From the NCBI RefSeq assembly GCF_003336245.1, contig NZ_QPHM01000001.1, forward strand, positions 2,856,113 through 2,920,112: 64,000 nt of DNA. Reading direction: 5' to 3'. The notes below the pieces were generated by a model that had not been told where the DNA came from, made no database searches, and saw only the letters and a program-made list of their open reading frames with translations. The position numbers and the translations under genes are program-made. This stretch comes from Haloplanus salinus. Its GTDB lineage: Archaea > Halobacteriota > Halobacteria > Halobacteriales > Haloferacaceae. Of this stretch, positions 3,297-49,955 are shown in pieces; the stretch's first letter is position 1, and the number at the start of each line of letters is the position of its first letter.

Positions 3297-3352
3297 CGTC
3301 CGACCCCGGTTCCGGTAGGTACTCCGCGTAATCCCCCGGCGGATTTATCCCC

Positions 3353-4799: not shown

Positions 4800-5369
4800 A
4801 CTAACCCGATTGTGCGAGTGGAGCGCCCCGGCGTGGTGCTCACGGAGGCAGTCGCTCACGACCCAACCTCGACGGTCAGGTTGGTGTCGGAGGCCGGAAC
4901 TGCCCCGACATCAGGAACGCCTTCATCGAATCGGGGACGGGAAAGCGGTCTATAGCGTCGCGTATACGGACGAAGCGGATGTTTGCTCACCAGCCAGTTT
5001 GACCGCGAACGGTGTCGTTTTTGAGGTGGAGACCGGTAGCGACGGTTGGATATCTACAGTAGAGATGCCCGAACCAACTTGGCCGGTTTCTGTGAGAGTG
5101 CGCGACGGCACGATACTGACATCGGGTTACTGCGCGTGAACGAATACGACAGTCCGGGGAGTACTGGCGCCGGCTCGACGGACAGCGGACGGGAGTCACT
5201 TCTCGTCGCGTTCGAATCGGGATACTTCGAAGAACCGCGGGACGCAACCCGCGGCGAGATCGCCGCCGAGTCGGACAGCTCTCAACCAACAACCGGTGGT
5301 CTTCGTCCACGTCGAATCGAGCGACTCATCGTCCCATCCTTGGCGGAGAATAGTGAACGGACTGACTAA
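4800..5369 (+). pseudogene. Decayed HTH-10 (bacterio-opsin activator-type) regulator
   Basis: Three pieces of one HTH-10 family regulator can be read in alternating frames. First comes an N-terminal piece (VRVERPGVVLTEAV, frame of 4800). A middle piece follows in another frame, ending near DGWISTVEMPEPTW at about 5085. The C-terminal piece returns to the first frame, with FESGYFEEPRDATRGEIAAE, the diagnostic helix-turn-helix of the family, around 5210-5265. At least two frameshifts separate them and the end of the HTH is degraded, so no full product can be made. The 3' end overlaps the start of the MFS gene. Intact members regulate transcription in haloarchaea. Confidence 0.72.
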
Positions 5370-6588
5370 CGATCGTACGTTCGCCGACGACTCAGTGTGG
5401 CGCGGGGTAACCATCGCGGCCGGTTGGCTACTGCTCTTGTTCGTCGGTGCGTACCTGATCACGCCAGCCAGCCTCCTACCGCTGGTGATGACCGATCTCG
5501 ACATTACGGAAGCCACGGCGGCCGCACTCGTCTCGATGCCACAGGTCGCTGCAACGGTGATTGGTATCCCCGTCGGCATCTATTTAGACCGCGTCGAAAC
5601 CCGCGCGACGGTTCCAGTTGCGGCAACCGTGCTGCTGATCGGCAGTACCGGTGACTGGCTTGCTGCGAGCGGGGGTGCGGTCTCGCTGCTGATCGCCTCG
5701 CGGTTACTTGCTGGCGCCGGGATGTTCGTACTGTGGGTGACCTGTATCAATGTAGCAGCGAGTACGTTTTCATCGACGAGGCGAGCGACGGCCACGTCGG
5801 TGATCATCTCCGGCTATCCGGCGGGATACGCGGCCGGGCATTTGGGTGCGCCACGCGTCGCCACGATTGTGGGGTGGCCCGGGGTATTTCCCGTCTTCGG
5901 CGTCGCGGTGGTGACGATGTCGCTCGCCTTCTACGTCGCTGTCGGGCGTGTACCTCGGCTCCACTCGTCTACGGACCCGATGACGCTACTCGGTTTCAAA
6001 ACGGTGATTCAGAACCGGAACGTGTGGGCGGTCATCGTCGTCACCGTTCTGGGTTACTCACTGTATATGGTGTTCAATTCGTGGATGCCGACGTACATCA
6101 CCCGACAGTTCGGAGTCTCGTTAGCCGAAAGCGGTACGTTCGTCGCGCTGTTTCCTGCCGTCGGGGTTTTCGCCCGGCCGATCGGAGGGTGGCTCTCCGA
6201 CACGGTGTTGAACCAACGGCGACGGCCGGTGTTCGCCGCCTCGTTCGTCGGTGCCACCGTACTCGCGGTCGCGATGTTCTACAGCACGACGATCGCGACG
6301 CTGGTGGCGATACTCGTTCTCGCAGGGGTGTTCGTTCAGCTACAGATCGGACTTATGTACCAGTCGATTCAGGAGTTCGTTGACCCTCGGGCCGCCGGGA
6401 CGGCCGTCTCGCTCGCAAGCGTGGCCGGGTGGCTGGGATCGTTCGTTGCACCCGTCGTGGCCGGCGAACTGGTCGCTACCACCGGGATCTACACCGTCCT
6501 GTTCGCGTTCGCGGTCGGCCTCGGTCTGTCCGGAGGACTCACCGTCTGGCGGATGGCTGAGTCCGGCGAGTCGACAGTGCCGGCCTGA
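5353..6588 (+). CDS. Major facilitator superfamily transporter
   Basis: The protein is about 411 aa with roughly twelve hydrophobic segments. It carries MFS landmarks: YLDRVETRATVPV in the loop after helix 2 (a motif A-like position), GPxG-like turns, and a central cytoplasmic break followed by a second six-helix half (AVIVVTVLGYSLYMVF onwards). The second-half motif GGWLSDTVLNQRRRPV is also present. The frame opens upstream at 5296, but the GTG at 5353 gives a short cytosolic N-terminus before helix 1 and is preferred. The group includes nitrate/nitrite- and CynX-like carriers; the substrate cannot be predicted. It overlaps the tail of the decayed HTH-10 gene. Confidence 0.85.
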   Translation: MNGLTNDRTFADDSVWRGVTIAAGWLLLLFVGAYLITPASLLPLVMTDLDITEATAAALVSMPQVAATVIGIPVGIYLDRVETRATVPVAATVLLIGSTGDWLAASGGAVSLLIASRLLAGAGMFVLWVTCINVAASTFSSTRRATATSVIISGYPAGYAAGHLGAPRVATIVGWPGVFPVFGVAVVTMSLAFYVAVGRVPRLHSSTDPMTLLGFKTVIQNRNVWAVIVVTVLGYSLYMVFNSWMPTYITRQFGVSLAESGTFVALFPAVGVFARPIGGWLSDTVLNQRRRPVFAASFVGATVLAVAMFYSTTIATLVAILVLAGVFVQLQIGLMYQSIQEFVDPRAAGTAVSLASVAGWLGSFVAPVVAGELVATTGIYTVLFAFAVGLGLSGGLTVWRMAESGESTVPA

Positions 6589-7017
6589 CTGCACCCTCTC
6601 CTTCCGGTATGCTATCGATGACGGATACCGTACGAACACGTCGGCCAGCTGTAGTTGCTGATCGCCACTCGTCGTAGCGTAAGCATCGCCGCCGCCGAAT
6701 ACGCGCGCTATGTTCGACACTCCGCCCAAATCGTATCAAAGGCTGAGAACTTCGTCCACGCGAACTGACGGCAGCTGCTGGCCCCTTACCGAGCCGTATC
6801 CATCCACAACTTCCCGGTGCAGGGCACATACCGTCCAGTGATGGTAACTGGGAGACGCCCAACGGACCAATGAGTTGGGATGGCGTGGCACGTGTTGCTG
6901 GTAGCGAACCGCGGGACTGACCAGCCACGATCCGGCATCGGTCGCCCCTCGAACGAGAGCCGGCTAAACCGACGACCACCCGACTGTAGTCGTACGGTTA
7001 CGGATGGGGATTCGGGC
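6589..7017. other. Gene-free stretch left of the integrated element
   Basis: No frame here has a credible translation. The stretch ends exactly where the partial tRNA copy at 7018 begins, so it is the left chromosomal flank of the element. No promoter or repeat stood out. Confidence 0.5.
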
Positions 7018-7044
7018 ATGGGCGCTGCAGGATTTTGAACCCGC
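7018..7044. repeat. Attachment-site copy (attL): duplicate of tRNA-Arg 3' end
   Basis: These 27 bases match the 3' end of the tRNA-Arg gene at 59676-59701 except for one extra T in a T-run (GGATTTTGAACCC here, GGATTTGAACCC in the tRNA). The match covers the 3' acceptor strand, the discriminator and most of the T-arm, the usual crossover zone of tyrosine integrases. The integrase starts 145 bases to the right. This copy is not a functional tRNA. Confidence 0.9.
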
Positions 7045-7189
7045 CCTCTTTTTCCCTCAATCGCCCGACTGCGTCGACCTCAATCGGCAAAAACCGGCAC
7101 AAAAAATAGCGAAGCCGGTAGCCATCCAAGGTAGGCTAAGCGGTGGTCTGTCTGATGACCTTTGCCACTGCCATTCATCAAACCAGACC

Positions 7190-8251
7190 ATGGTAACACG
7201 AGACACACTGGAACCCCTAGAACCATCTGAAGCAGCCGAATTGTACTTAAACAATCGAAAAACCGATGGGGCAGCTGACGGGACCGTCCGAGCCCACCGC
7301 CATCGCCTCGGTCATTTTCTTGAATGGTGTGAAGAACAAGAAATCACCAACCTCAACGACATCACAGGACGAGACCTCCGCTCATTCAAAGTCTGGCGGA
7401 GTGAGAAAGGGTCGATCGCGCGGTCGACACTGAAAAACAGTATGGACACGCTGCGGAAGTTCATGCGGTTCTGTGAGAGTATCGAGGGCGTCCCCAGAGA
7501 CGCCCACATGGCCGTCACGAGCCCAACACTCTCTGAAGACGACGCCAACCACGAAGTGGTACCCTACGAGACCCAAGAGACGATCCTAGAGCGTCTCAAC
7601 CGCTTCCAGTTCGCAAGCTTCGAGCACGTGTTCGCCCATCTGCTTCACGAATGCGGCTTTCGAGTTGGGGCCGTCCGTAGCCTCGATCTGGAGGACTTCC
7701 AATCTGAGCCCGTTGAGCTTCCTGATGGTACTCGGATTGGGCCACACATCGAGACTCATCATCGCCCGGCGACTGACACCCCGTTGAAGAACGGAAAGGA
7801 CTCGGAACGATTGGTTGCTCTCAAAGGGCACAGCGTTGAGATTCTCACCGACTACATCCAACACCAACGTTCCGATTTCCAAGACAAGCACGGCCGAGAC
7901 CCACTACTGGTGAAACCCCGATCGACGACGCGTCCGACCACACAAGCACTGCGAGACATCAGTTACGGACTCACTCGCCCATGTACGTACGGCGAAGAAT
8001 GCCCCCACGATCGCGACCCAGACTCCTGTGAAGCTGCGAGAATGGTCAACTCTGCTTATGACTGCCCGTCGAGCATGTCTCCCCACCCTTGGCGGCGAGC
8101 AGTGATGACACATTGGCGAGCTAATGATGTTCCGATCGATGTGGTCAGTGATCGGTTCGACGTGAGCCCGTCTGTCATCGAGAAGCACTACGACGTACGG
8201 ACAAAGCAAGGGAAAATGGAACAACGCCGGAGGTACTACGACGACTTGTAG
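7190..8251 (+). CDS. Tyrosine recombinase (integrase) of the element
   Basis: This site-specific recombinase should catalyse integration and excision at the tRNA-Arg attachment site. With the ATG at 7190 it has 353 residues. The N-terminal SAM-like core-binding domain covers about residues 10-100. The catalytic domain shows the Arg box (GFRVGA, Arg158), the H-x-x-R box (HPWRR, His299/Arg302), a further His308 and the nucleophile Tyr334 in EKHYD. A Cys/His cluster between residues 265 and 292 is common in haloarchaeal integrases. The frame is open leftward across the attachment repeat to 7004, but those residues are non-coding in character. Confidence 0.93.
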   Translation: MVTRDTLEPLEPSEAAELYLNNRKTDGAADGTVRAHRHRLGHFLEWCEEQEITNLNDITGRDLRSFKVWRSEKGSIARSTLKNSMDTLRKFMRFCESIEGVPRDAHMAVTSPTLSEDDANHEVVPYETQETILERLNRFQFASFEHVFAHLLHECGFRVGAVRSLDLEDFQSEPVELPDGTRIGPHIETHHRPATDTPLKNGKDSERLVALKGHSVEILTDYIQHQRSDFQDKHGRDPLLVKPRSTTRPTTQALRDISYGLTRPCTYGEECPHDRDPDSCEAARMVNSAYDCPSSMSPHPWRRAVMTHWRANDVPIDVVSDRFDVSPSVIEKHYDVRTKQGKMEQRRRYYDDL

Positions 8252-10150: not shown

Positions 10151-12247
10151 TCAAATCAGGCGATTGTCGTCCGATACGTCATCTGTGGTCTGTTGCCGGG
10201 GATTCGAAGATTGGACCGTCGCTGCCCGGTCAACTAGCTCGTCTGGATTATGCTTCTTTTCAACGTCGGTCCCACGATCCCATGTGTCGTCACCATCTGG
10301 TCCGACTCTTTGATATCCCCCACCCTCTCCGGGAAGTTCAGACGGTCGCCCGTACCGTATTATACGGAGAGTTCGAAGTAGGTCGAGTCGTTGTATCTCT
10401 GTCATCGTCACCTCAGCGCCTTGTTGTAGCTCTTCTCCGAGGCGAAGGGTGGCTCCAACTCCGTCTACTTCGTGTGTGGCTTCAATATCGAGCGTTAATA
10501 GACGCTCCTTGTTCTCCTCATGGCCGAGTTTGAACTCATAGTTTTCACCGTGTTCCCACCGGAATGTCTCAAGGTCGATATACTGTCCCTGTCCGGGAAC
10601 ACGACCATGTTGAACATGTTCGAGTGATGAGAGAAGAGAGACAAACGTACGAATCTGATCCCCGACAAGGCAGATGTACCCTCCTTCCCATCCGCCTCCT
10701 CCGAAGTGTAGGTCTATCGCATACTCGCCGTCCTTCGTCTTGAAGTCCTGAACGCTCAGTCGGACATAGCCATACTTCGGTTCCCACCGGCCGTGGTCTT
10801 GGCCAGTCACGTACGGTGCGGCAGAGTGGCCGGTCAGGAGGTATGCGCGGGAGGTTGATGCGTTTCTGGATTGCTCTTTCAACGAGTTGCGGGGCTCGTC
10901 CGATTGGGATATGTTGAGTTCAGCAATATCGTGGATGACTGCATCAGTCTCTCGGGGATCGTAGTCCCAGACGACATCTTTACCTGCGTCATCAGTTAGC
11001 GGGTCTCGCCACTCCGACAACACAAAGGGGTAAGTCACATCACTGCCGTTCGGAATCCGTACGTCGCCATAACCGGTCTTGTGAAACCCCGTTCCGTGTT
11101 CGAACCCGTCGTGTTCAAGTTTGAGCGGGCCAGCATCACGGACCTTCGTCACCCGTCCATCTTCATCGACTAGGATAACGCCGACTGACGCCAGATTCTC
11201 ATGCTTCGTGACGAGGTTGATGGATCGCTCCTGAAGTGCTTCCGGGACAGCGAGATAGAGTCTAGAGAAGGAAGCCGTTTCAAGACACTCCGTGAGCTGG
11301 TTGATGACTCTGTTAGATGAAAATGAGCCACGACCCTTCGCCTCTATACCAACGATTGCACCAGAGTCTGTTTCGAGAATCTTTGTAGGGTCCCAGTGCT
11401 CTTCGAACGATACGAGGTCTAGTGGGCGATCAAATCGCTCCGACTCCATAACATTTGGAATGGAGCCTTCCGGTATTCCGCCGAACTCCTCCCAGACCGA
11501 ATGACGAACCCACGGTTCTTCTTCGCGATTGAACACAGGCTTGTTATCACGAGCTAGTGGAGACGGTTCTCGGACAATCTCAGGCTCGCCGATCTCACCG
11601 GGTCTGAGCGCCATCCGGGGGCTCCGAAGATATCCCCCCTGTAACGGGAGCGGCATCTGTATAAGCCCGATAGCCTCTGGCAATACGGACCGGGAGATAT
11701 CGCTAACCCCTGTTTCAATTGAGATTGGCTCCAGTGAGCGTTCAGTTCGCTCTTCGATGTGACGGCGGATGTACGATAGAACAGAATGGCGGCCATCCGA
11801 AAATTCGTAAGAGAGAATTTCACGATCTACGTTCGCCTTGATCTGCTGAAGTACCTCGTCGGTAGTGAATCGTCCTTCCTGTACGCCCGCCCGCAGTTTT
11901 CGGCTCGCTTGGCTGATGACCGGTATTAGGGGCTCTACGTCGTTTGCGTCGATTTTCTTTGCAACCGCTCCTACGGACGGGGATGCGAAGTAGACTGCAT
12001 CGAAGTACCCGCTATCGACGTAGCGCCAGAGTTGCTCGGAAAGTTGTGCGCCCCAAGAAAGCCCGCTCCCTGCCTTTAGTTCAATTCCGATATAACGGCC
12101 GTCGGGCGTCTCGCAAGCGAGATCAATACGACCGTTCCCCGTGTCAACCTCACTATCGACTCGCCAGCCTCGGTCGGTCTCTAACCAGTGCCAAAGCTGC
12201 TCCGTGACAAGTGGTTCGACGAAGTGTACCATAATGCCAGTCGTCAC
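10151..12247 (-). CDS. Large protein with two PD-(D/E)XK-like nuclease sites
   Basis: The 698-residue product has two nuclease-like cores. The first is at residues about 35-60: GRIDLACE (Asp42) and YIGIELKAG (Glu56, Lys58). The second is at about 270-306: RPLDLVSF (Asp277) and IVGIEAKGR (Glu302, Lys304). Each is followed by a helix-rich stretch ending in a hydrophobic strand (AVYFAS, LYLAVP), as expected of the fold. The C-terminal third (about 430-640) has Gly/Trp-rich strands (FGGGGWEGGYICLVGD) that I cannot assign. Translation may start at residue 6 (ATG at 12232). I know no named system for this architecture; a restriction or anti-plasmid role is a guess. Confidence 0.65.
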   Translation of the reverse strand: MTTGIMVHFVEPLVTEQLWHWLETDRGWRVDSEVDTGNGRIDLACETPDGRYIGIELKAGSGLSWGAQLSEQLWRYVDSGYFDAVYFASPSVGAVAKKIDANDVEPLIPVISQASRKLRAGVQEGRFTTDEVLQQIKANVDREILSYEFSDGRHSVLSYIRRHIEERTERSLEPISIETGVSDISRSVLPEAIGLIQMPLPLQGGYLRSPRMALRPGEIGEPEIVREPSPLARDNKPVFNREEEPWVRHSVWEEFGGIPEGSIPNVMESERFDRPLDLVSFEEHWDPTKILETDSGAIVGIEAKGRGSFSSNRVINQLTECLETASFSRLYLAVPEALQERSINLVTKHENLASVGVILVDEDGRVTKVRDAGPLKLEHDGFEHGTGFHKTGYGDVRIPNGSDVTYPFVLSEWRDPLTDDAGKDVVWDYDPRETDAVIHDIAELNISQSDEPRNSLKEQSRNASTSRAYLLTGHSAAPYVTGQDHGRWEPKYGYVRLSVQDFKTKDGEYAIDLHFGGGGWEGGYICLVGDQIRTFVSLLSSLEHVQHGRVPGQGQYIDLETFRWEHGENYEFKLGHEENKERLLTLDIEATHEVDGVGATLRLGEELQQGAEVTMTEIQRLDLLRTLRIIRYGRPSELPGEGGGYQRVGPDGDDTWDRGTDVEKKHNPDELVDRAATVQSSNPRQQTTDDVSDDNRLI

Positions 12248-15912: not shown

Positions 15913-17640
15913 CTATAGTAGATCCTCTTCTCCGGTGGATTCTCCTCCACCCATGTCGGCAGATTCGGTTCGGCCCGGCTGCTCATTGCGTTGCTCATGT
16001 GCTTGCTTCCACTGAGAAGTGGCTGGGATACTACCAGCTCCATGGGTTGTGTGGCGCTCTCTGACCTGAATCAGTACGGGGGTATTCATTGCGTCGCCCG
16101 AAACCACTGCTTGTCCCGGGGTTAATCCGGGAAGCTCTCGAAGCACTTCCTCGCCGGCAGCTTCGACACTATTTTTGATCGCATCTTGGTCAGTCGGATT
16201 CTGGATCTGCATCGTTACCTGCGTCCCACATTGGGACAACACGTCTTGATCAATCTTCGAGGGTCGCTGGCTTATTATTCCCAATCCGAATCCGAATTTT
16301 CGGCCTTCAGACGTGACCGTCCGCATAATCTCGAGAGATGGTGCCTCACCAGTCGAGGGGGCAAACCGGTGACCTTCCTCAAAGAGTGCAAATAGCGGTT
16401 GCTCGATGATCTCGCCATCATATCCCTCTTCGTCTCCACGGCCTCGAACTGCTGCCAACCGAGCCTGATACAACCGTCGCAACAGGACGGTTGCGATCAT
16501 TTGCTGGTCGCGACGACCGAGAGTGTCCATTTGGAGGACAGTACATCGGCCGGGAGCTACCAGATCGTCAAGAGGTACATTCACATCGGTCGTGAATAGG
16601 TCGTTCCGCTGAATCGATCGTCGCAACCGCCATTCTAGTGCACCGACACTGGAGTCGTCGTCACCATACTGATCCCGCATCTCCTCAAGTAGGTCATCGA
16701 TCCCCCATGTCCGTGACTCTCGACGTTGCATCGCACGCCATCCGCTATCCAACCGCTCCTGCATCCGATCACTGGGATTATCGAGGATCGACATCACGTC
16801 GCCGACGTTCAATTCAGAGATCCGAATCCGCAGATTCTCCGGTGTAAAGTATTCAACTTCCGGATGGTAGTCATCGCTAGCAAATATTCCGTTGCCACGC
16901 ATCTCAGAAAGAGAACTGTACTCTCCATGAGGGTCAAATACCAGAAGCGATGCCCGAGAATCGGGCATCATCATCTCTTCCATCAGGACACCTGCCGTGT
17001 ACGACTTCCCTGATCCTGTGGAAGCGAGGATAGCGAGGTGAGTGGCCGCGAATTCGTCGATAGGTATGTGAACGTCGACTGCATTCGCCTCCCGGTTAAG
17101 CAGCCAGCCCATGTGCGCGAGGCCTTCTCGTTCCTCCACATTGATGCGACTAAGATCGACCGACCCGTTGGCATCAGTCGCCTCTTGCTCATCGACCCCG
17201 AGGTTCGGCAGTATCGCCTCCAACATCTCGTTAGGAGCGGTCCACAGACGTGTTCCCGGACTCGGGAGCTGGCGAGGGTTCGAGAATGTCTGCATTCCCG
17301 TGTCGTAGAATCCGATGACTGTCGCCTCAAGTCGATACAGATCGATATCATCCGTTGGAACACCAAGCGTTGATGCAACGGCCTCCGGAGCAACGTTCGG
17401 ATCCGCCATGAACGTCTCTGGTAACCCCCTAGCCTGTTCGCGGTTCGTGACCCGTGCGATGACCTCTCTGCCTGTTCCGTCGACTGGGACCGTGTACGAG
17501 ATGAATTCTCCAGTCTTGACAGCCTGATCGTCAGGAGTGACTACGACGAATTCGTTCGGATCGTCACCGGGTCCAGCGACTGTTCCGATGAGCTCTTTTC
17601 CACCGTCTTCCGTGGAGGTTTCCGATCCGAGAGAACTCAT
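15913..17640 (-). CDS. herA: HerA-type hexameric DNA translocase
   Basis: HerA ATPases pump double-stranded DNA and work with NurA during end resection. This 575-residue copy has an N-terminal HAS-barrel-like region (about 15-130), a Walker A motif (ASTGSGKS, residues about 206-213), a Walker B-type region with LFALFEEGHRFAP, and the sensor region GLGIISQRPSKIDQDVLSQC typical of HerA/FtsK relatives. The ATG at 17640 overlaps the upstream stop (ATGA), which decides the start; the longer frame to 17673 is unlikely. It is the last gene of a co-directional cluster with nurA, rad50 and mre11. Confidence 0.9.
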   Translation of the reverse strand: MSSLGSETSTEDGGKELIGTVAGPGDDPNEFVVVTPDDQAVKTGEFISYTVPVDGTGREVIARVTNREQARGLPETFMADPNVAPEAVASTLGVPTDDIDLYRLEATVIGFYDTGMQTFSNPRQLPSPGTRLWTAPNEMLEAILPNLGVDEQEATDANGSVDLSRINVEEREGLAHMGWLLNREANAVDVHIPIDEFAATHLAILASTGSGKSYTAGVLMEEMMMPDSRASLLVFDPHGEYSSLSEMRGNGIFASDDYHPEVEYFTPENLRIRISELNVGDVMSILDNPSDRMQERLDSGWRAMQRRESRTWGIDDLLEEMRDQYGDDDSSVGALEWRLRRSIQRNDLFTTDVNVPLDDLVAPGRCTVLQMDTLGRRDQQMIATVLLRRLYQARLAAVRGRGDEEGYDGEIIEQPLFALFEEGHRFAPSTGEAPSLEIMRTVTSEGRKFGFGLGIISQRPSKIDQDVLSQCGTQVTMQIQNPTDQDAIKNSVEAAGEEVLRELPGLTPGQAVVSGDAMNTPVLIQVRERHTTHGAGSIPATSQWKQAHEQRNEQPGRTESADMGGGESTGEEDLL

Positions 17641-18314
17641 CGCATCACCCCCCGATCCACGGAGGACTGCCAACGCACGTCTTTCTCGACCACATCTAGC
17701 ACCCGCTGATTCGGATCCTCTGGGAACAGTTCGCGGAGTCGCTCCACGATCGAGAGAGTTACCTCCGCTCCAAGTGGACCGGCCACGTCAAGAAGACGCT
17801 CGATGTAAGCAATCTGGAGGCCGTCATCTGGACCTATATGGAAACTTCGTATGATTCGGTCAGGACACTGTTTCACGACATCGTCAACGGCGAGCGTCCA
17901 GCGAGGCATTTCCTGACTCGGGGAGTTGACAGTCCCATCACCAGCTACCTCAGCAGTACCCAGAAGGACAACTCCAGCGAGCGTCGTCCGCTCTTCGACA
18001 TATCCGGGCGTGAATTGAGGTTGATCGCCCTGTGCGAGCCGTGGCCCTGATCGTCCCTGATCCGGGTCAACGAGCTGGGTGTCGTAGATAACTCCCATAA
18101 TGATGTACTCGGTACCATCGATGGTCTTGTGGATGAAGACTGGTTGACCGAAGCCACACTCGTGGGGCTCCGGTGGACGGTCACGGTCTGTTTCGTTGAA
18201 TATCTCAACCGTGTAGTCCATGTGACTGTTTGAATTGACAATGCTTCCGATGGCGAGGCAGTCATCAATAGTGCTTGCCTCGTTTCCGGTGTCGTTTGTA
18301 GATCGTGAACTCAT
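17637..18314 (-). CDS. Unknown partner protein between nurA and herA
   Basis: This 225-residue protein has strand-rich segments (YTVEIFNETDRD, GQPVFIHKTIDGTEYIIMGVIYDTQL, TTLAGVVLLGTAEV) followed by a helical C-terminus (LSIVERLRELFPED). I do not recognise a family. The strand-rich part resembles the beta-barrel that precedes HerA ATPase domains, so it could be a regulatory or adaptor barrel for the HerA ring; that is inference. It overlaps herA (ATGA at 17637-17640) and the small frame upstream in the same way, pointing to tightly coupled expression. Confidence 0.6.
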   Translation of the reverse strand: MSSRSTNDTGNEASTIDDCLAIGSIVNSNSHMDYTVEIFNETDRDRPPEPHECGFGQPVFIHKTIDGTEYIIMGVIYDTQLVDPDQGRSGPRLAQGDQPQFTPGYVEERTTLAGVVLLGTAEVAGDGTVNSPSQEMPRWTLAVDDVVKQCPDRIIRSFHIGPDDGLQIAYIERLLDVAGPLGAEVTLSIVERLRELFPEDPNQRVLDVVEKDVRWQSSVDRGVMR

Positions 18315-18487
18315 GGGTGGTGTATGCTGAATGTGGATGTGACGGCTCCACTACCGAGATCGTGCGAACGGATCTGGTCACCGGGCAAACTCTGACTTAT
18401 GGAAGCTCTATAAGTTGAGCTATCACCGCGATATTCTTCATCTCCGATTATTGCTCCACAACGGTGGTGAGCCCGATTCAGGATCAT
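18311..18487 (-). CDS. Small coupled ORF between nurA and the herA partner
   Basis: A 58-residue frame fills the otherwise empty gap. Its ATG overlaps the nurA stop (ATGATC at 18487) and its TGA overlaps the next ATG (18311-18314). The product (MILNRAHHRCGAIIGDEEYR...) has no family resemblance. The double overlap favours a real, translationally coupled gene, but GC-rich sequence can produce this by chance. Confidence 0.4.
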   Translation of the reverse strand: MILNRAHHRCGAIIGDEEYRGDSSTYRASISQSLPGDQIRSHDLGSGAVTSTFSIHHP

Positions 18488-19758
18488 CGCCTTCTCAACT
18501 CCTTGCTGAGTGCTTTGGCGTTCCACTCGATCGGAACATCGTTCCTTTCGCCCCAGCTCTGGAGGAGTCGGAGGAACTGTTCCCGATCCTGATGATTGAG
18601 GACTGCGTCAGTATCGGCCTGCTGTAGGATTTCTGGGTATCCCCGTCCGACTCCTGCTTCGGCTCGAATCATTGTAAGAGTGTACTCGTAGAGGTTTTTG
18701 TAGCCATCTGGGGCAGTTGTATCCAGAAGCCACCCCGGAAATTCCAGCCTATCTAACCCAGCTCCGGGCGGGACTTTGAGATAGCTGAAGTGAATCTCGT
18801 TTGCGAATCTGTACTTTTGACCCTTGTACGAAGCTTTCAGCGCGTCCACACTGCCATCGCGGCGACACAGGAACGGGATTGTCGCATCTCCCCACGGACT
18901 CATCATTCCGGTGAGTACACGCGCGTCCGGAATGGTCCGGTCACCCCCAAAGTCCTCTTGTAGCAGAAGCCGCGTCATCTTCGAGAGTTCGACAGCGTTT
19001 GTCCCAGCCACGTATCCCACGACCGGTATTTCGTGGTGCTGACTCGCTGCGAGGATTCGACTGACTGCTTCAAGATAGCGTGTTCGAACGGCAGGTCGCT
19101 TCGGGTTGGCAAAGGAGACGACTAGCGGCCCATCATAGAGAACGATCGGTGGATGATCGGACTCATTCGATTTGTAGTCTGCCGCGAGCTCCTCGATTTG
19201 TTCAACGAGCACCGCTGCTTCGTGTTCGTACCGATGTAACCCAACCAACGAGCTATCGACGAATTGATACTCTTCATCGCCTTCCTCCCCACCAGTACGG
19301 GTCACGTCTGTTGGCCCCAACAACTTACCATCGCGTGCTCGTTCGAGCTTCCCTTCTGGTTTGTGGTGATTGAGACACCATGCTGCTTGGACGTACGCAA
19401 GAGGGACGTTGAACTGCGTCGTCGGTGGGATTTCTGACCCGTCAGCCGCCAGCATCGGAACGTCCATCAAAAGCTCACGCGCCCAGTCGTTTACCGCTTC
19501 GTGGCTTTCCCACGCGTCCGACTGCGCGTGGTGATTGATCAGCGAGTCACAACTATCGAACCCATCGACTGGAACCGCTCCGGGGTACGAGTATTGCGAC
19601 AGTTCCGACCGGAGCTCTTCCGCCGTCCCCATCGTTGGAAGGTTTCGGAACGCCTCCTGATATCGTTCGACGAGATCGTCGTCATCTTCGACGTAGGTTC
19701 GAATCGCGTCGATATTCTCATCAAGGGCGGCCGCCACCCCTGCCTTATCCAGCGGCAT
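18484..19758 (-). CDS. nurA: NurA-family nuclease
   Basis: NurA is the nuclease partner of HerA and trims 5' strands at DNA ends for homologous recombination. This 424-residue protein has the family's signature acidic sites: the early ADGSEI strand (Asp106), the central IVLYDGPLVVSFA strand, and the later RFANEIHFSYLKVPPGAG region near the end of the nuclease core. Length suits a haloarchaeal NurA. Its stop overlaps the next small frame and its ATG abuts the rad50 stop, so it lies in the middle of a coupled operon. It is probably a second copy beside the chromosomal resection genes. Confidence 0.85.
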   Translation of the reverse strand: MPLDKAGVAAALDENIDAIRTYVEDDDDLVERYQEAFRNLPTMGTAEELRSELSQYSYPGAVPVDGFDSCDSLINHHAQSDAWESHEAVNDWARELLMDVPMLAADGSEIPPTTQFNVPLAYVQAAWCLNHHKPEGKLERARDGKLLGPTDVTRTGGEEGDEEYQFVDSSLVGLHRYEHEAAVLVEQIEELAADYKSNESDHPPIVLYDGPLVVSFANPKRPAVRTRYLEAVSRILAASQHHEIPVVGYVAGTNAVELSKMTRLLLQEDFGGDRTIPDARVLTGMMSPWGDATIPFLCRRDGSVDALKASYKGQKYRFANEIHFSYLKVPPGAGLDRLEFPGWLLDTTAPDGYKNLYEYTLTMIRAEAGVGRGYPEILQQADTDAVLNHQDREQFLRLLQSWGERNDVPIEWNAKALSKELRRR

Positions 19759-22472
19759 CAGTCACTCACCACTTCAGAGGTTTGCTCTGGCTTCTCGATG
19801 ACGATGCTGTGGTCCGTCATCGTTTCGAACGTCGAGTCGTGACTGATGACGGTGAGCTGTTCAAAGGTGTCGAGCGCGTTCAACTGGTCCACGAGGTTGG
19901 CCTTTTTTTGCTGGTCTAGATTTGCGGTCGGCTCGTCGAGGAATGCGATTCCCAGTCCCGACATCTGCTCGAGGATAGCCAACCGCACTGCAAGTGCTGC
20001 TGCCATCTTTTCCCCGCCCGACAGCGTCGAGAAGGATTTACGGACATCAGCATCTACGACGACGATGTCGTAGTCCGATGTCCACTCAAGTTGCTCCGCG
20101 TTGCGCCCCCGGATCGACCGGAAGATAGAGTTCGCACGAGTGCCAATCCTACTGGTAATTACCTCTCGCATCTTCGGCCCGGCCTTGCGGACGTTTTTCC
20201 GGACCCACTTGGCGAAATTATAGTTGGCCGTGAGGTCGCGTAGCGTTTCAACCTTCTCAGATCGCTCCTCCAGTTTGGCTTCCAAACGCTCGACTTCAGC
20301 GGTGACTTCCTGATGTTGGTCTTCTCTCTCGCTCTTCTGAACTCCGAGTTTTGTTACCTTGTCGTCAAGCGTGTCAGCCCGTTTTTCAAGTTGCTGGTGT
20401 TCCTCAGGGTCGAACTCTTCCTGCCGTTCAGAGAGGTCGTGCTCCAGCTCTCGCTTTTTATCCTCTAGCCCATCAATCTCATCTTGTAGAGTATCGACGG
20501 CTTGTTCTCGCTTTTCTAGCTGTTCTGCCGCTTGCTTGTTCCGCTCGTACTTCTTGTACTCCTCTTCGTGCTTCCCGAGTTTGGTCCTGAGTTGCTCCAG
20601 CTCTTCGTCGACACCCGCGTACTCGGTCAACTCTTCCTCGGTTTGCTCGATCCTCCCGACAGTCTCCTTGATATCTCCCTTGAGTTCCGCTAACTCCTCA
20701 GGAGCGTCGGAGTAATCATCGACACGGGCCTTTGCTTGGTAGTACGCATCTTTCGCATCCTCGAGCGAGGTACGTTCCTCTCGAAGCGCCGGCAGAGTGT
20801 CGACCTCCTCTTCGAGCTGAGTGATTCTCTCATCCTTCTCTTTCCGTTCTCTCTGGATGTCGGCCAGTTCGCGTTCCAGTTCGGCAACCGACTCACGGTG
20901 GATCTCTAATTTCGATACGCGGCCCTCGACTCGTTCAGCTTCTGCTAGCTCTTCTTGTAGTTGTTCGATCTTCTCCTTCAACTTGGAGCGCTCTGATTCA
21001 ATATCTTTCAGCCGAGCCTCCTGCTCCTCGATTCTCTCCTCACGATCTTCCGGATCCAACGATTTCCCACACGTTGGACAGGGAGCATCGGAGTCGGCAT
21101 CCCGCAGAATCGCGAGATGTTCTTCGATGTCTTTCTTTTCGGTTGCGAGCGACTTGCGATCCGCTCGCTTGTCTCCGATCTCATCCCGGAGTTCATCGGC
21201 ATCGGGGGCGTCCTCTGCCTCTTCCTCAATCTCCGCGATGAGTTCTTCTTTTTCTCGAAGTTCTAGTAGGGTCTCGTGTGCCTCATCGTCCAGACCCTCT
21301 ATCTCCCCCTCCAGTCGGTCGACCGTCTTCTGCTCGCCTTCCAGCTCGGATATCTTCTCTCCTAACTCCTCATAACGTTCCTTCTCCTGCCCGTGCTTTT
21401 CGAGGCTCTCTTTGGCCTCTTGATGTTTCTCGGCCTGCTCCTGTAGAGTTTCCTCCCTGTCCTTCAGACGTTGGAGTCTGGCCTCCTGCTCCGAGAGTTG
21501 GTCTTCGAGTGCGTCAAGCTCTTTTTTCCGCTCGCTGAGCACCTCTTCTCTGTCCTTTGCCACCTCGTATTTTTCGTGCCCCTCCGCTGCCTCTTCGCAT
21601 TTCTTGGCTGCCTCACGCGCCTTCGAGAGTTCCGACTTTGCGGTGTCTAGGGCCCCTTCCTTAGCATCGATATCCTGTTCGAGCTTTTCAATATCCGTCT
21701 CTAGCTCCTCAATTCGATCCTTGACGGTGTCTAGCTCGTCGAACTCTTTCTCGACCTCGGTGAGTTCGGATTCCGTCTCCGTAATCTCCGTAGAGATGGA
21801 CTGGATCTGACCTTCTAGCTCGGCTTTCCTCGAGCGTTTGTCCGGAAGACCCTGTATCTCTCCCGTTAGCTTCTGAATCTCTCCCCGAACTTCTTCCTGC
21901 TTTGTCTCGATCGTATCTGGCACCTGCTTCAGAGCGCCCTTGAACGACTCTTCGTAGGCATCGACGCCGAGAAGTTCATCAAAAGTGGATTTCCGGTTGC
22001 GTGGTGTTTGTGCGAAGTCAGACAGGAATCGGGTCTGAGGCACTCCGACACAAGACTTCCAGAGACTCCGTAAGTCGTCCTTGCCGTCCACATCGAACCG
22101 AGCACAGAGCCAATCGATCAAGGCATTCTTCGAATCGATATCCTGACTCACCCACTCGTCGGTCGGCTCGTCATAGCGGGCGACACCATAATTTGAGCGG
22201 CCGGCGGAACGAGTCACTCTGTACACCTCAACATCGTCTTCTTGACCGAATTCGATGACGACCTCAACCGTTCCGGAGGATGCCCCCTCACGAACGAATT
22301 CGTTGTTGTTGAACGGCAGTGAGTCGAAGAGAGCGAAGCCGATTGCTTCCTGTATCGTCGACTTCCCAGAGCCGTTCTCTCCGAGGATAGCCGTGACGCC
22401 CCCCCGTAGGTCGATGCTTGTCCTCTCCCCGTAGGATTTGACGTTTTCTAGAGTGACTTCTTTGATTCTCAC
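19758..22472 (-). CDS. rad50: Rad50-like SMC ATPase
   Basis: Rad50 forms with Mre11 a complex that binds and processes DNA double-strand ends. This 904-residue protein has Walker A GENGSGKST (residues about 32-40), a Q-loop region, long coiled coils on either side of a CPTC zinc hook (Cys465/Cys468), the ABC signature LSGGEKMAAALAVRL and Walker B IAFLDEPTANLD, followed by a D-loop and a switch His in VISHDSTF. All expected parts are present, so it should be active. The ATG overlaps the mre11 stop. The many serine-rich plus-strand frames here are shadows of the coiled coil. Confidence 0.94.
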   Translation of the reverse strand: MRIKEVTLENVKSYGERTSIDLRGGVTAILGENGSGKSTIQEAIGFALFDSLPFNNNEFVREGASSGTVEVVIEFGQEDDVEVYRVTRSAGRSNYGVARYDEPTDEWVSQDIDSKNALIDWLCARFDVDGKDDLRSLWKSCVGVPQTRFLSDFAQTPRNRKSTFDELLGVDAYEESFKGALKQVPDTIETKQEEVRGEIQKLTGEIQGLPDKRSRKAELEGQIQSISTEITETESELTEVEKEFDELDTVKDRIEELETDIEKLEQDIDAKEGALDTAKSELSKAREAAKKCEEAAEGHEKYEVAKDREEVLSERKKELDALEDQLSEQEARLQRLKDREETLQEQAEKHQEAKESLEKHGQEKERYEELGEKISELEGEQKTVDRLEGEIEGLDDEAHETLLELREKEELIAEIEEEAEDAPDADELRDEIGDKRADRKSLATEKKDIEEHLAILRDADSDAPCPTCGKSLDPEDREERIEEQEARLKDIESERSKLKEKIEQLQEELAEAERVEGRVSKLEIHRESVAELERELADIQRERKEKDERITQLEEEVDTLPALREERTSLEDAKDAYYQAKARVDDYSDAPEELAELKGDIKETVGRIEQTEEELTEYAGVDEELEQLRTKLGKHEEEYKKYERNKQAAEQLEKREQAVDTLQDEIDGLEDKKRELEHDLSERQEEFDPEEHQQLEKRADTLDDKVTKLGVQKSEREDQHQEVTAEVERLEAKLEERSEKVETLRDLTANYNFAKWVRKNVRKAGPKMREVITSRIGTRANSIFRSIRGRNAEQLEWTSDYDIVVVDADVRKSFSTLSGGEKMAAALAVRLAILEQMSGLGIAFLDEPTANLDQQKKANLVDQLNALDTFEQLTVISHDSTFETMTDHSIVIEKPEQTSEVVSD

Positions 22473-24010
22473 TGGCGGTCACCTCCGTCTGTACTTGGGA
22501 CCTCTCCAGTCTCGCTTCTGCTCTCCTCAGTAGAATTACGGTCATCTGATGTCTCCCCGGAGACGCCGTTGGCAGGCTCTTGTTGGTCTTCGCTAGCGAA
22601 GGGATCCTCTGGTACATCTATCGACACGCTTTCGGTGGAATTCGAGAACAACTCGCGCCGAAGCTCTGTCACGACATCCGCGATGTCATCCGCCCCTTCA
22701 CCACTCTTCGCCATCCGGTGGGCGTCGCCAAGAAGTGATGCCACCTCTTCAGCATGGTCGCTGTACTGGGACTCTGATGCGATCGTCTCGAAGACACGCT
22801 GTTCGAGTGCTTCCGTTCGCAGCCGCCCGTCCACGAATACTTCGTCATCATCTATCTCGGAGAGAAGTTCCTCGATATCAGCAGACGTGATACGGCTAGT
22901 GTTCGTCTGGACGTAGAGCGCATCGTACGCTTCCTCCGTCCATTCGGCGAGCTCCTCAATTGCGAGGTCGCCTCGATCGAATTGTAACGTTCCCTCGAAT
23001 TGTAGATCGACCATCGGTTGACGGAGCTCCCCACCCTTGGTGAACTCCTCCTCGCGAAGTTCAGCATCAAGCGAGTCGTTCTGTTCATCAATGTGGTCGT
23101 GGAAAGCATCCCGAAGTTCGCCGAACGAATCGTACGGAGTGACATCGAAAGCAGGCGGACTGAAGTACGGGCGTCGACGAGCCTGATGATGCTCAACGCT
23201 ATGTTTGAACGCTCCCGGCCCATCGTACGTGTCTCCCGCAGGAGTGAGTTCGATGGAGTAGTATCCGTGGTTCCAGTCGTCTCGCGCTTCGCGTGTCGAG
23301 TGTGCTTCCGGCGAACCGGGATTGTAAATCCAACCAGCCGAATCGTACCGCTTGTGAATGTGGCCTAGTGCGAGGTAGTCGACGACATCCCTCACCTCAC
23401 GAAGCTCTGTATGTGTGATATTCCCTCCGAGCGACGGAACTTCGTCTTCGATCCCGAAGTGGCTAAGAAGTATCGTATAATCCGGTTCCCCGTATTCTTC
23501 GTTGTTCGACTCGATCCCGTCAGCAATCTTCTCAAGAGCAGTATCTGTCTGAGCGCCTCGCCACTGTAGGCCAAATACCCGAATAGTACCTGACTCGGTC
23601 TCGATATCGTAGAATCCAGCTTTGTCTGTTCGATCTCCATACGGTGTGAAGTCGGCGGTTTCGGGGGTGGAATCTAGATCTGCTTCAAGCAGGACGATGT
23701 GTTCTCGTCGATGGAGATAGTTCAGCCACGTCACGTCCCGTGGTGTGAGGTTCTCATCGTGGTTTCCTCGGGAAACGAGGACGGGAACGTCGTCAGGAAC
23801 CAATTCGAGACCCTTCTCCGCATCTTCGAGGATTTTGGGACGTAGGTCCCGTGAGTGGAACAAGTCTCCGGGAAGCAGAATGGCATCTGGGTCCTGCTTG
23901 AGGATGAGTTTGAGCGTCGCTACGAACGAGTTTGCCATGTCATCCTCACGCTGTTTCAAACCGTATTGTCGGTGGCCAAGATGGATGTCGGCCAGATGTG
24001 CGATGTTCAT
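22469..24010 (-). CDS. mre11: Mre11-like nuclease
   Basis: Mre11 is the metallo-phosphoesterase nuclease of the Rad50 complex. Its motifs are in order: LADIHLGH (Asp8, His10), LPGDLFHS (Asp49), SRGNHDE (Asn83/His84), LLSHFGIED and LALGHIHKR. The 513 residues include a C-terminal capping region and an acidic, low-complexity tail. The stop overlaps the rad50 start (ATGA), as in many archaeal mre11-rad50 pairs. Being on an integrative element beside a PLD-ATPase, HerA and NurA, it is more likely part of a defence-type machine than the housekeeping copy. Confidence 0.93.
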   Translation of the reverse strand: MNIAHLADIHLGHRQYGLKQREDDMANSFVATLKLILKQDPDAILLPGDLFHSRDLRPKILEDAEKGLELVPDDVPVLVSRGNHDENLTPRDVTWLNYLHRREHIVLLEADLDSTPETADFTPYGDRTDKAGFYDIETESGTIRVFGLQWRGAQTDTALEKIADGIESNNEEYGEPDYTILLSHFGIEDEVPSLGGNITHTELREVRDVVDYLALGHIHKRYDSAGWIYNPGSPEAHSTREARDDWNHGYYSIELTPAGDTYDGPGAFKHSVEHHQARRRPYFSPPAFDVTPYDSFGELRDAFHDHIDEQNDSLDAELREEEFTKGGELRQPMVDLQFEGTLQFDRGDLAIEELAEWTEEAYDALYVQTNTSRITSADIEELLSEIDDDEVFVDGRLRTEALEQRVFETIASESQYSDHAEEVASLLGDAHRMAKSGEGADDIADVVTELRRELFSNSTESVSIDVPEDPFASEDQQEPANGVSGETSDDRNSTEESRSETGEVPSTDGGDRQ

Positions 24011-24219
24011 GTCTTTGGATTCGCTTGGATGGCTTCTGGTAGCTTTCCCCTGAGCGAGGCCGCTACTTCGGATCTCTGCGGTAGAGATTTTTGCTGTCCG
24101 TTGGGTTCGTGATCGGCCCGCGTGTTGGGTCGATTACGTATTTTAAAGTGGTGCCACTTAACGACACGCTGACCAAGGCGGAAGTGGTTCGAACCAGAGC
24201 TCACTGGGTTCTGTGACAT
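24007..24219 (-). CDS. Small basic ORF coupled to mre11
   Basis: A 70-residue frame whose TGA overlaps the mre11 ATG. It starts at an ATG 15 bases after the stop of the upstream PLD-ATPase gene; a further ATG at 24243 would overlap that gene. The product (MSQNPVSSGSNHFRLGQR...) is Arg/Lys/Gln-rich, which is unusual for a halophile. It has no recognised domain and could be only a leader for mre11. Confidence 0.35.
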   Translation of the reverse strand: MSQNPVSSGSNHFRLGQRVVKWHHFKIRNRPNTRADHEPNGQQKSLPQRSEVAASLRGKLPEAIQANPKT

Positions 24220-24233
24220 TGCGGCATATGATC

Positions 24234-26294
24234 CTACTTCCATAGTCTGCTCCACCATCCAGCCGACTTTGGTTTGATTCCAGTCCACTCGTAGAATCGT
24301 TCAGGTTGGTCGAACTGGATACGGGTCTTCTGGACTTCAGTGCGGATCGTCGACGGAACTACCTTGTCGTACTTGAACACGGCATACCCGTCGAGGTTTT
24401 CCGAGAAATCTGCGAGCAGGATGTCGTTCTTTTCCTCGATGGTGAAGAGACCCGTCTGGTGGGCCTGTCGCCACTTCCGACGGCCGTGGTCGTAGATACG
24501 CTCGGCGGGCCCATCTTTCGGGAAGTATGCTGGCAACTCCCGGCCTGCGTATTCGTAGAGCTCTCGGAATACCTCGCGCGCGACCGCGAGTTTGTCATCC
24601 TGATCGGGAAGAGTGATCTGCTTCTGGAAGAGCAGGTGAGCGAACCACGGGAAGAGCCGGTTCTGCTCTTTAATTAACCGTGCAGTCTCTTCCCGTTCAT
24701 GCCCTTCTACGTCGAATACGACATCGAATTCGAGCATCTTCATCCGGGTCCGATACTCTGACTTCGGATTCCCGTCATTTGATGTGAATACGAACGTGGG
24801 GAAAGCGACCGACCCATCCCACGCCCCTGTCCAGTAGGTTTTGATAATGTCTCTCTCGACTCTGTCTTTGTCCACGTCATCTACGAGGAAGGGAAACACA
24901 GTATTGGATGAGCGACATCGGTCGATCGCATCTTTCGTGAACTGCTGTCCCTCAACGGGCTCTGCAACGGCTCCGTTCGAAATCAAATTCGCAGCGAATC
25001 GAAGGAACATCCCCTTCCCGGAGTCGTTCTGTCCGTGGATGTAGAGGAAGGGAAGGTCCTTATCCAGTTCAGCTCCATCGCGATTGGCATATTCCTGCGC
25101 GAAGTAGTTCGCGAACGGTGCCCAGAAGACGTAGATGACGGCTTCGTAGAAGTGGGCCATAGTTTCTTCCGGTCGCTTTGCGTCTCCAAACCGGTCGACC
25201 GTCTCTATGTATTCCTCGATATGAGCCAGTGCCTCAGAGACCTCCTTGCTGTCGTCTGGCAAAGCAGCCGTCATTTCGAGTGTGGTATTGTCGAGTTGCA
25301 TCCGGACGATCTTCTTCTCCCGATTTACCCACATTGTCGGGAAGTCGTCATTGAATCGGCGGAGGTAACGATCGAAGCCGGCTGCGGAGCCCCGCAGCTC
25401 CGTTGGCTTGACCGAGACATTGTGTCGTGAAAGAGTCGACTCCGCCTGCTTCACTGGCTCCTCAAGTCCCTGAGGCGAAAGGCGCATCTGCCGATCCTGC
25501 TGGACATCCGTCGCGTCGACATCACCACTCCCATCGGCTTGGAGGGCAACGACTTCTTCCGCTTCTTCGGCGTCGGAAACCACATTGATCCGTCGCACTC
25601 GCTCATCATCCTCATCAAACATCTCTACGATGCGCCGATGGAGGTCTCCGGTCGGATTGTCGGAAGGAACAGTCCCGTCCACCCAGAGATCGTAGACTCG
25701 CTCACGCTCTTCTGGATCTTCCGTCTCAGACAATTGTTCTGTGAGGTCCTTCATGAATAGTTCACACTCCTCACGGTGAGCTTCGTAGAGTCTGTCCGCG
25801 TACTCATCGATAATGGAATCTCCATTAGTGCGGAATACCACGACGAGATTGGTCTGATTCCCCGACCACGCTTGCTTCGAGAGGTTCGGAGAGCCAAAGA
25901 CCACCGTTCGTGACCCATCACGATTCTCCGCGAGGTAGAGTTTGCTGTGGAGCGTGACGCGCTTGTCAAGCGTATATAGATTTAGCTGATCCTCATCCAG
26001 TAGATGAGTCAGATGTTTCGCGAGGTCGAGATCTCCCTGTAAGTCTTTGCGGTATTCTGCCTGTCGGTAGTCCCCGACAACGACCTCCAGATGCTCGAGG
26101 TCGAGGTCATTACTCGCGAATAGCTGATGGATAATCTGGGGAGATTGTGAGTAGGTGACTGCGCGGAGTACACGCGCGTCGCCGAAGTAGTCGACGAACG
26201 TGGGCCACGATTTGACCATCGCGAGTTCGAGGTCGATTGCCACCTCTTCTCCACCCTCTCGCGCCGGGACTGTGATTGGGATCGTGTAATCCAT
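24234..26294 (-). CDS. PLD-superfamily nuclease fused to a P-loop ATPase
   Basis: With the ATG at 26294 the protein has 686 residues. An N-terminal PLD half carries a single H-x-K site (TLHSKLYLAEN, His116/Lys118) followed by GSPNLS (residues 134-139), the usual HKD-type active-site layout; a dimer would complete it. Residues about 420-560 contain a P-loop-like motif (GQNDSGKG) and LVDDVDKD as Walker B, resembling SF3/D5-type helicase-like ATPases. It heads the resection operon. An in-frame GTG at 26387 lies 28 bases from a TATA-like box (26411-26420) and is a real alternative start. PLD nucleases occur in several defence systems. Confidence 0.8.
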   Translation of the reverse strand: MDYTIPITVPAREGGEEVAIDLELAMVKSWPTFVDYFGDARVLRAVTYSQSPQIIHQLFASNDLDLEHLEVVVGDYRQAEYRKDLQGDLDLAKHLTHLLDEDQLNLYTLDKRVTLHSKLYLAENRDGSRTVVFGSPNLSKQAWSGNQTNLVVVFRTNGDSIIDEYADRLYEAHREECELFMKDLTEQLSETEDPEERERVYDLWVDGTVPSDNPTGDLHRRIVEMFDEDDERVRRINVVSDAEEAEEVVALQADGSGDVDATDVQQDRQMRLSPQGLEEPVKQAESTLSRHNVSVKPTELRGSAAGFDRYLRRFNDDFPTMWVNREKKIVRMQLDNTTLEMTAALPDDSKEVSEALAHIEEYIETVDRFGDAKRPEETMAHFYEAVIYVFWAPFANYFAQEYANRDGAELDKDLPFLYIHGQNDSGKGMFLRFAANLISNGAVAEPVEGQQFTKDAIDRCRSSNTVFPFLVDDVDKDRVERDIIKTYWTGAWDGSVAFPTFVFTSNDGNPKSEYRTRMKMLEFDVVFDVEGHEREETARLIKEQNRLFPWFAHLLFQKQITLPDQDDKLAVAREVFRELYEYAGRELPAYFPKDGPAERIYDHGRRKWRQAHQTGLFTIEEKNDILLADFSENLDGYAVFKYDKVVPSTIRTEVQKTRIQFDQPERFYEWTGIKPKSAGWWSRLWK

Positions 26295-26425
26295 GATTTT
26301 TCTCAGCCGGTCAGGATAATCACGGCTACCTGCGAGCCATCCGGTCTTCCAAGCCGGATGAGTGTGTTCACCACCTGACACGGCCACAATACCCTGAAGA
26401 ATGGTTGAGATATTAACAATTATGC

Positions 26426-26457
26426 TGACAGTAACGACGGTGACGACTGTACTGTCA
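26426..26457. promoter_or_regulatory. Candidate operator between divergent promoters
   Basis: A perfect 8-bp inverted repeat (TGACAGTA, 16 bases, TACTGTCA) lies between a minus-strand TATA-like box (ATTGTTAATA, 26411-26420) and a plus-strand one (TAGTATTAAT, 26462-26471). The latter is 28 bases before the regulator ATG. The position suits a site by which the winged-helix regulator controls both itself and the PLD/Mre11/Rad50 operon. Confidence 0.55.
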
Positions 26458-26493
26458 CAATTAGTATTAATGACATGGTAGTGAGTGTAGGGT

Positions 26494-27258
26494 ATGAAAG
26501 ACAATCGAGATCGCGATATGGACGTAATTGAACGAGTTCACATCGCACCTCTGGGATACGAATACGATCGGATCGTCTTACCCATATTGAATCAGAAGGC
26601 AGATCGGGCGATACTCATTGACTACCGTAATGATGAGCAGCGACCACCGTACCACGAACAAGTTCGAGACGATCTCCGGGATGCAAATGTCACCGTTGAA
26701 AACCGTGAGGCGGATATTTTCTCACTCCATGACTCAATCGGAACGGTTGCTCGATTAATTAGAGAGAATTCGAGACACCAAGTCTATGTAAATCTCGCCT
26801 CAGGATCGAAGGTAATGGCGATCGGTGGGATGATCGGCTGTATGGCTGAGGGGGCCACTCCGTATTATGTGAGAGCAGAGGAATACAAGTTCGACGGACA
26901 GGAGCCCCTCTCAAGAGGAATTAAGGAAACCTTCGCACTTCCTGCATATCCGGTAGAGCAGCCAACATCAGAGCACATTCAAATCCTGCGTGCTCTCAGA
27001 GACAACGGTCCTCTTTCGAAGGGAGAGTTGATAGATCTCGGGCAGCACGAATCTCTACCTTTCGTTGAGAAATCAGAGACTGATAGTCGGAGAGGAAAAT
27101 ATCGAACACTGGAAGCCCGAGTCACTGATCCACTTGAACAGAGGGGATACGTCACACTCGAGACTGTTGGGCGAAGAACTCTGGTTGAGATTACTGAGAG
27201 TGGTCAGAGCCATCTCCAAGCTTTTGAATATATGATTGAGGTTAACGAGACGCCCTAA
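26494..27258 (+). CDS. CARF-type winged-helix regulator (HFX_2341/DUF6293-like)
   Basis: The 254-residue protein opens with a CARF/Rossmann-like domain: VHIAPLGYEYDRIVLPIL, a charged AILIDYRND strand, and the diagnostic VYVNLASGSKVMAIGG near residue 108. The second half (about 165-250) is a winged helix (ILRALRDNGPLSKGELIDLG, then an EARVTDPLEQRGYVTLE wing). In haloarchaea this matches HFX_2341-type regulators, relatives of Csa3; CARF domains bind cyclic oligonucleotides or other nucleotides. There is no CRISPR array or cas gene in the window. It diverges from the PLD-ATPase/Mre11/Rad50/NurA/HerA cluster, so it is its likely regulator. Confidence 0.8.
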   Translation: MKDNRDRDMDVIERVHIAPLGYEYDRIVLPILNQKADRAILIDYRNDEQRPPYHEQVRDDLRDANVTVENREADIFSLHDSIGTVARLIRENSRHQVYVNLASGSKVMAIGGMIGCMAEGATPYYVRAEEYKFDGQEPLSRGIKETFALPAYPVEQPTSEHIQILRALRDNGPLSKGELIDLGQHESLPFVEKSETDSRRGKYRTLEARVTDPLEQRGYVTLETVGRRTLVEITESGQSHLQAFEYMIEVNETP

Positions 27259-49945: not shown

Positions 49946-49955
49946 TCACGAACCG

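Follow-up and report, generated by a model that had tools for sequence, protein, structure and literature searches.

A mobile DNA-end-resection cassette beside an AgaP-type PLD nuclease in Haloplanus salinus: a candidate anti-plasmid and anti-virus system of haloarchaea

In Haloplanus salinus, an integrative element carries an AgaP-like PLD nuclease-ATPase together with a complete set of DNA-end-resection genes, namely Mre11, Rad50, NurA, a stand-alone HAS-barrel protein and HerA (the five-gene cassette). The stretch analysed here, called the window, comprises 64,000 nucleotides of the 3.55 Mb genome (assembly GCF_003336245.1, contig NZ_QPHM01000001.1, positions 2,856,113 to 2,920,112 of the forward strand), and the locus occupies positions 15913-27258 of it. 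We propose, with a probability of about 0.6, that these genes form a mobile anti-plasmid or anti-virus system that combines a complete end-resection engine with a PLD effector nuclease of AgaP type. This function is inferred by association, from the linkage, mobility and partner exchange described below.

Gene content and catalytic motifs of the locus

On the minus strand the order is PLD-ATPase, Mre11, Rad50, NurA, HAS-barrel and HerA, and a gene encoding a CARF-Rossmann and winged-helix regulator is divergent from them. The original prediction, made by reading the sequence alone, had described a set of end-resection genes with intact catalytic motifs, headed by a PLD nuclease-ATPase fusion that diverges from a CARF-winged-helix gene; every gene that it named is present, and both the motifs and the arrangement were confirmed. 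The PLD protein (24234-26294, 686 amino acids; PLDc_2, 1e-5; NgoFVII PLD, 7e-4), whose true start is probably the ATG at 26294, has a C-terminal P-loop ATPase and keeps the catalytic residues HSK at 116-118 (HxK) and GSPN at 134 (GSxN), with the Walker A sequence GQNDSGKG at 421. The Mre11 nuclease (22469-24010, 513 amino acids; Metallophos, 1e-16; PDB Mre11, 2e-19) possesses the DxHxG, GDLFH, GNHD and GHxH motifs, and in the Rad50 ATPase (19758-22472, 904 amino acids; AAA_15, 4e-22), whose GTG start overlaps the Mre11 stop, the Walker A and B, LSGGE and CxxC zinc-hook motifs are all intact. The NurA nuclease (18484-19758, 424 amino acids; PF09376, 3e-24) has the invariant DGS/DG motifs. HerA, a hexameric DNA translocase (15913-17673, 586 amino acids from a TTG start; DUF87, 7e-37), more likely starts at the ATG at 17640, giving 575 amino acids, and its nearest solved structure is the Thermococcus HerA-NurA (9x1l, 2e-37); neither the NurA nor the PLD profile matched any PDB sequence. 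The mre11, rad50, nurA and herA genes adjoin on one strand, an order kept in other loci, and overlaps of a few nucleotides occur at the Mre11-Rad50, Rad50-NurA and HAS-HerA junctions.

The HAS-barrel gene (17637-18314, minus strand, 225 amino acids) was absent from the earlier reading and was added by this analysis. Its product has no Pfam match, but its AlphaFold2 model (predicted local distance difference test score, pLDDT, 81) gave 45 Foldseek matches at E<=0.001, all to HerA-type hexameric ATPases and nearly all to HerA proper. According to this model, the protein is a free-standing HerA-like HAS barrel with C-terminal helices. The gene was called in 37 of 39 cassettes fetched from other genomes and, since a Chloroflexi metagenome-assembled genome (MAG; locus L140) has the complete Mre11-Rad50-NurA-HAS-HerA order, it may have belonged to the cassette from early on and may partner HerA-NurA in general.

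The possibility that the cassette is the housekeeping mre11-rad50 of the cell was rejected, because the same genome has a separate pair at C1:710-715 kb, consisting of a rad50 at 710685-713291, 27% identical to the cassette Rad50, and an mre11 beside it at 714245, and also another NurA at 2765705. The original prediction was to fall if no other copies existed in the genome; since they do, that objection does not apply.

Concerning mobility, the cassette lies on an element of approximately 52.7 kb integrated in a tRNA-Arg gene, as indicated by a copy of the tRNA end, an integrase and a shift in GC content. The tyrosine integrase (7004-8251, plus strand; Phage_int_SAM_1, 1e-9) accompanies the left attachment site, where 27 nt of the tRNA-Arg 3' end are duplicated (7018-7044, plus strand; 27 columns, 96%, one gap); the intact tRNA-Arg(tcg) forms the right attachment site (59677-59751, minus strand). 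Inside the element, from about 6 to 60 kb, GC content lies mostly at 42-60%, against 64-71% outside. It is a classic tRNA-integrated element, in agreement with the location originally proposed.

Distribution and conservation of the cassette

Using the window NurA as query, full or partial relatives were found in 40 of 394 Halobacteria genomes (about 10% of haloarchaea), one weak match being left out of the count, and 39 of the 40 loci were fetched with their surroundings. Save for contig ends and failed gene calls, all 39 show one order, Mre11-Rad50-NurA-HAS-HerA, and this shared order across NurA-bearing genomes is far beyond chance. Catalytic motifs are likewise kept: those of Rad50 in 39/39 loci, the HerA Walker motifs in 37/37, each of the two NurA motifs in 38/39 and the Mre11 motifs in 38/39 (the remaining one is the second half of a split gene). 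Conservation of the original gene set elsewhere holds for the five-gene cassette and not for the CARF gene, which is intact in just two of the 40 loci, the window and genome G336. Three cyanobacterial loci (L137-L139) were rejected as cassettes, only their NurA being matched, and a contig search with the PLD as sole query gave no match, while the NurA alignment did find relatives.

The hosts include plasmids of Halobaculum marinum and Natrinema zhouii, members of Halorubrum, Natronomonas, Halococcus and Halopiger, and a Diapherotrites MAG. Recombination genes are common on viruses and plasmids, and the element of the window encodes an integrase and a B-family DNA polymerase (37133-39319, 728 amino acids); it could thus be supposed that the genes serve the element itself, in replication, recombination, excision, transfer or an attack on host or competitor DNA. 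We consider this very improbable, since no relative was found in 2.9 million viral contigs and since the cassette occurs not only on plasmids but also on long chromosomal contigs whose surroundings are unrelated.

Among the neighbours of the cassette are GmrSD and, by sequence inspection, McrBC, OLD and SNF2-Eco57I genes. In four loci (L077, L080, L081 and L083) an AAA-winged-helix-turn-helix gene (c8), a gene for a 238-amino-acid protein (c6) and a DUF2797 gene (c12) are found beside the cassette, with a divergent Argonaute. In L092 and L097, c8 and c6 are accompanied by a gene for a 762-amino-acid protein (c24), upstream of Mre11 and in the same direction.

Linkage to AgaP-type PLD nucleases and Argonautes

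The PLD family was found on plasmids in 19 records by tblastn, and the window PLD is 35.5% identical to the product of a locus on NC_019963.1, which we take as the AgaP gene because it is the PLD match on a plasmid of the strain in which AgaP was tested, Natrinema pellirubrum DSM 15624. AgaP is toxic alone, restricts plasmids together with Argonaute and needs both HxK and GSxN (Cheng et al. 2024, PMC11442185); the authors mention a neighbouring helicase, with no discussion of resection. The anti-plasmid role suggested for the locus finds support here, the window PLD being homologous to a nuclease experimentally shown to restrict plasmids.

In a tree of 40 PLDs, built from a quick search and unreliable in its deep joins, the window PLD forms a clade with those of G336 and H. 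marinum, all with the cassette and none with Argonaute. This clade is sister, with a support of 96, to PLDs adjacent to Argonaute (67% identity for Natrinema zhouii), so that partners have been exchanged, and association with the cassette changed at least five times on supported branches.

A family PLD lies within 15 kb of the cassette in 18 of 40 loci, compared with 0.24 expected under random placement, and at the genome level the two co-occur with an odds ratio of 10 (P=6e-11), statistics that take no account of common descent or of the tendency of defence genes to cluster. The genome-level association between cassette and Argonaute is not significant (6/40, P=0.36). A first pass with PF02171 missed the Argonautes of G096, G151, G225 and G376, which tblastn recovered, although the profile does match the copy in L118, which is the named-record counterpart of G096; inspection of its sequence showed that gene L095_2 had been labelled Piwi spuriously, and it was left out of the counts.

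Three kinds of resection engine were found next to Argonaute and PLD. In L100, Argonaute, PLD, Mre11, Rad50, NurA, HAS and HerA follow in a row. In L149 and L150 the order is Mre11-Rad50-NurA-HerA-PLD-Argonaute, only about 25% identical to the set of the window, and their divergent Mre11 clusters with that of the housekeeping lineage, which indicates that this second set was assembled independently. In L028 and L144-L147, genes for a PD-(D/E)XK nuclease and for a UvrD-PD-(D/E)XK (RecB-like) helicase-nuclease come after Argonaute-PLD. In the Argonautes of these loci, conserved acidic PIWI columns are retained that fit the DEDX tetrad. A wider and more tentative proposal is that of a modular haloarchaeal defence class, in which an AgaP-type PLD, with or without Argonaute, would be coupled to interchangeable engines (the five-gene cassette, the separately assembled Mre11-Rad50-NurA-HerA or the RecB-like set); the common principle would be that resection of foreign ends destroys the invader and, with Argonaute, makes guides.

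As side observations, the Argonaute-PLD operons of L028, L144-L147 and L159 also contain a gene annotated as UvrD, without Pfam match, the whole set resembling AddAB/RecBCD; in L159 the PLD and helicases are kept and Argonaute is reduced to a fragment. A pair of SIR2-HerA type (a SIR2 family protein and an ATP-binding protein) is located at NZ_CP084884 (L027) 3228-6189, near the Natrinema zhouii Argonaute-PLD operon.

It should be noted, however, that several observations weigh against a defence system built from PLD and cassette. Clustering of defence genes in islands inflates the linkage figures, and the loci are phylogenetically non-independent. For the PLD-ATPase, AlphaFold2 gave a poor model (pLDDT 51), unfit for fold search. 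In 22 of the 40 loci there is no PLD in range and most cassettes are without Argonaute, so the engine may act alone or with other partners; moreover, PLD and Mre11 are spaced by about 220 nt, and a common transcript is only putative. These last points, together with the variable position of the PLD relative to the cassette (upstream, downstream or divergent), would also suit two separate defence modules, co-located in islands with no joint action. We regard this as quite unlikely, given that the linkage is far above expectation across deeply different PLD subclades and that the independently assembled set directly adjoins PLD and Argonaute.

Finally, all five cassette genes occur among ordinary metabolic genes in the Chloroflexi MAG (L140:5894-13523); therefore the cassette itself is not defence-specific, and its use in defence probably came later than its origin. 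The same finding, the retention of all catalytic motifs and the housekeeping role of the mre11-rad50-nurA-herA repair operon in thermophilic archaea (PMC7776575) could be read as signs of an accessory repair set that improves break repair of the host or the element, the PLD being an unrelated neighbour. The cassette, however, is patchily spread, lies among defence genes on integrative elements and plasmids, and is repeatedly linked to AgaP-type PLD and Argonaute; these points make the repair explanation rather unlikely, and we prefer that of a mobile defence system.

A possible mechanism

Our confidence in the detailed mechanism is lower than in the defence explanation, the roles being deduced from protein families. 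Rad50-Mre11 would hold and trim exposed ends of invader DNA, such as those of linear viral genomes and of broken or replicating plasmids. The HerA hexamer would form a complex with NurA and, as adaptor, the free HAS-barrel protein, and this complex would pump and degrade the duplex. Cutting of the invader would fall to the PLD-ATPase, which may so offer new ends to the engine and is presumably held in check by its partners, in the way that Argonaute restrains AgaP. In loci with an Argonaute, its single-stranded guides may also come from the engine, by analogy with RecBCD and bacterial prokaryotic Argonautes (pAgos); RecBCD alters the guide pattern of a bacterial pAgo, yet it is not strictly required (PMC10269773).

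The CARF gene and regulation

The original prediction had also supposed that the system is switched by a nucleotide signal through the CARF protein (26494-27258, plus strand; PF19810, 1e-39; PF22665, 5e-27; PADLOC CARF3, 1.5e-86). This part was not borne out and the idea is weak. Apart from the two intact genes, a 37-amino-acid CARF remnant precedes the Halobaculum marinum PLD. Cas1, the Cas10 palm (PF22335) and the SMODS cyclase have no match in the genome, so there is no evident source of cyclic oligoadenylate, although this negative covers the SMODS and Cas10 palm types and other cyclases could remain unrecognised. Among relatives of the CARF protein, HFX_2341 is the best studied; it acts as a global repressor and is also present in species without CRISPR (PMC11434293). 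Two more DUF6293 paralogues are encoded elsewhere in the same genome.

The divergent regulator would probably repress the promoters until relieved. The interval between the CARF gene and the PLD contains an imperfect inverted repeat of 22 nt (26412-26471), with 77% complementarity in the window, which could be an operator. The surrounding stretch is largely conserved in G336, where the equivalent was not reported as an inverted repeat. Such a conserved stretch fits local transcriptional control. In other loci, genes of AAA-HTH type hold a similar divergent position beside Argonaute.

Relationship with known systems

The closest described system is APAP, formed by a haloarchaeal long-A Argonaute and the AgaP PLD (PMC11442185). 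The window PLD is homologous and has the same HxK and GSxN residues; however, Mre11-Rad50-NurA-HAS-HerA takes the place of Argonaute. There is no Piwi gene at the locus and no PF02171 match in the genome; Argonaute was thus searched for and is absent, so the window system is not a member of APAP, although it probably works on related lines. None of the five cassette proteins is named in that paper. The thermophile operon and the bacterial HerA-NurA share the same four enzyme families, but the window set differs from the repair operon in its extra HAS-barrel gene, in being accessory and mobile, and in its linkage to PLD and Argonaute.

SIR2-HerA (Nezha) and DUF4297-HerA, compared at HerA only, also drive a nuclease-type defence with a HerA hexamer, and the HAS barrel is a structural match, whereas the window has NurA and Mre11-Rad50 in place of SIR2 or DUF4297. 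Lamassu shares a Rad50/SMC-type sensor ATPase, the window Rad50 matching PADLOC LmuB at 4.5e-42; it differs from the window, which has a full Mre11 nuclease, NurA and HerA and, among the ten proteins scanned with PADLOC, no match to the LmuA effector. The regulator belongs to the same CARF and winged-helix DUF6293 family as HFX_2341, which is vertically inherited, while the window gene sits in a mobile element beside the system.

No paper uniting Argonaute or AgaP with NurA, HerA or Mre11 in one system was found in a search that left aside subscription papers and preprints. The association is real and recurrent, and it is undescribed within the searchable literature. If the proposal is true, a universal repair machine, Mre11-Rad50 with NurA-HerA, has been turned into a mobile defence weapon. 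It makes testable the source of the guides of archaeal Argonautes and the way in which an AgaP-like nuclease tells plasmid from chromosome. The recurrence of Argonaute-PLD with three resection engines suggests an archaeal counterpart to the shaping of the guide pool by bacterial RecBCD, and the Argonaute-less version in the window separates engine from guide.

Other genes of the element

Further defence-like genes span window positions 36097-57699. QueC (40190-40879), a radical-SAM QueE-like gene (40992-41768) and a TGT/DpdA-like gene (43587-44621) suggest 7-deazaguanine DNA modification. They are followed by a BREX-like trio of BrxC-like, PglZ-like and HerA-like genes (45932-52231), a PD-(D/E)XK nuclease of PDC-S26 type (53349-54695) and a BrxHII helicase without its N-terminal third (55873-57699).

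A 698-amino-acid protein with weak PD-(D/E)XK matches (10151-12247) is a possible further component of the system. It has no relative in the fetched surroundings of G336. Among all fetched loci its relatives (40-50%) are near a family PLD only, directly after HerA in L100 and upstream of Argonaute-PLD in L027, L142 and L143; on plasmids, relatives were found in 11 records, most of them without a family PLD.

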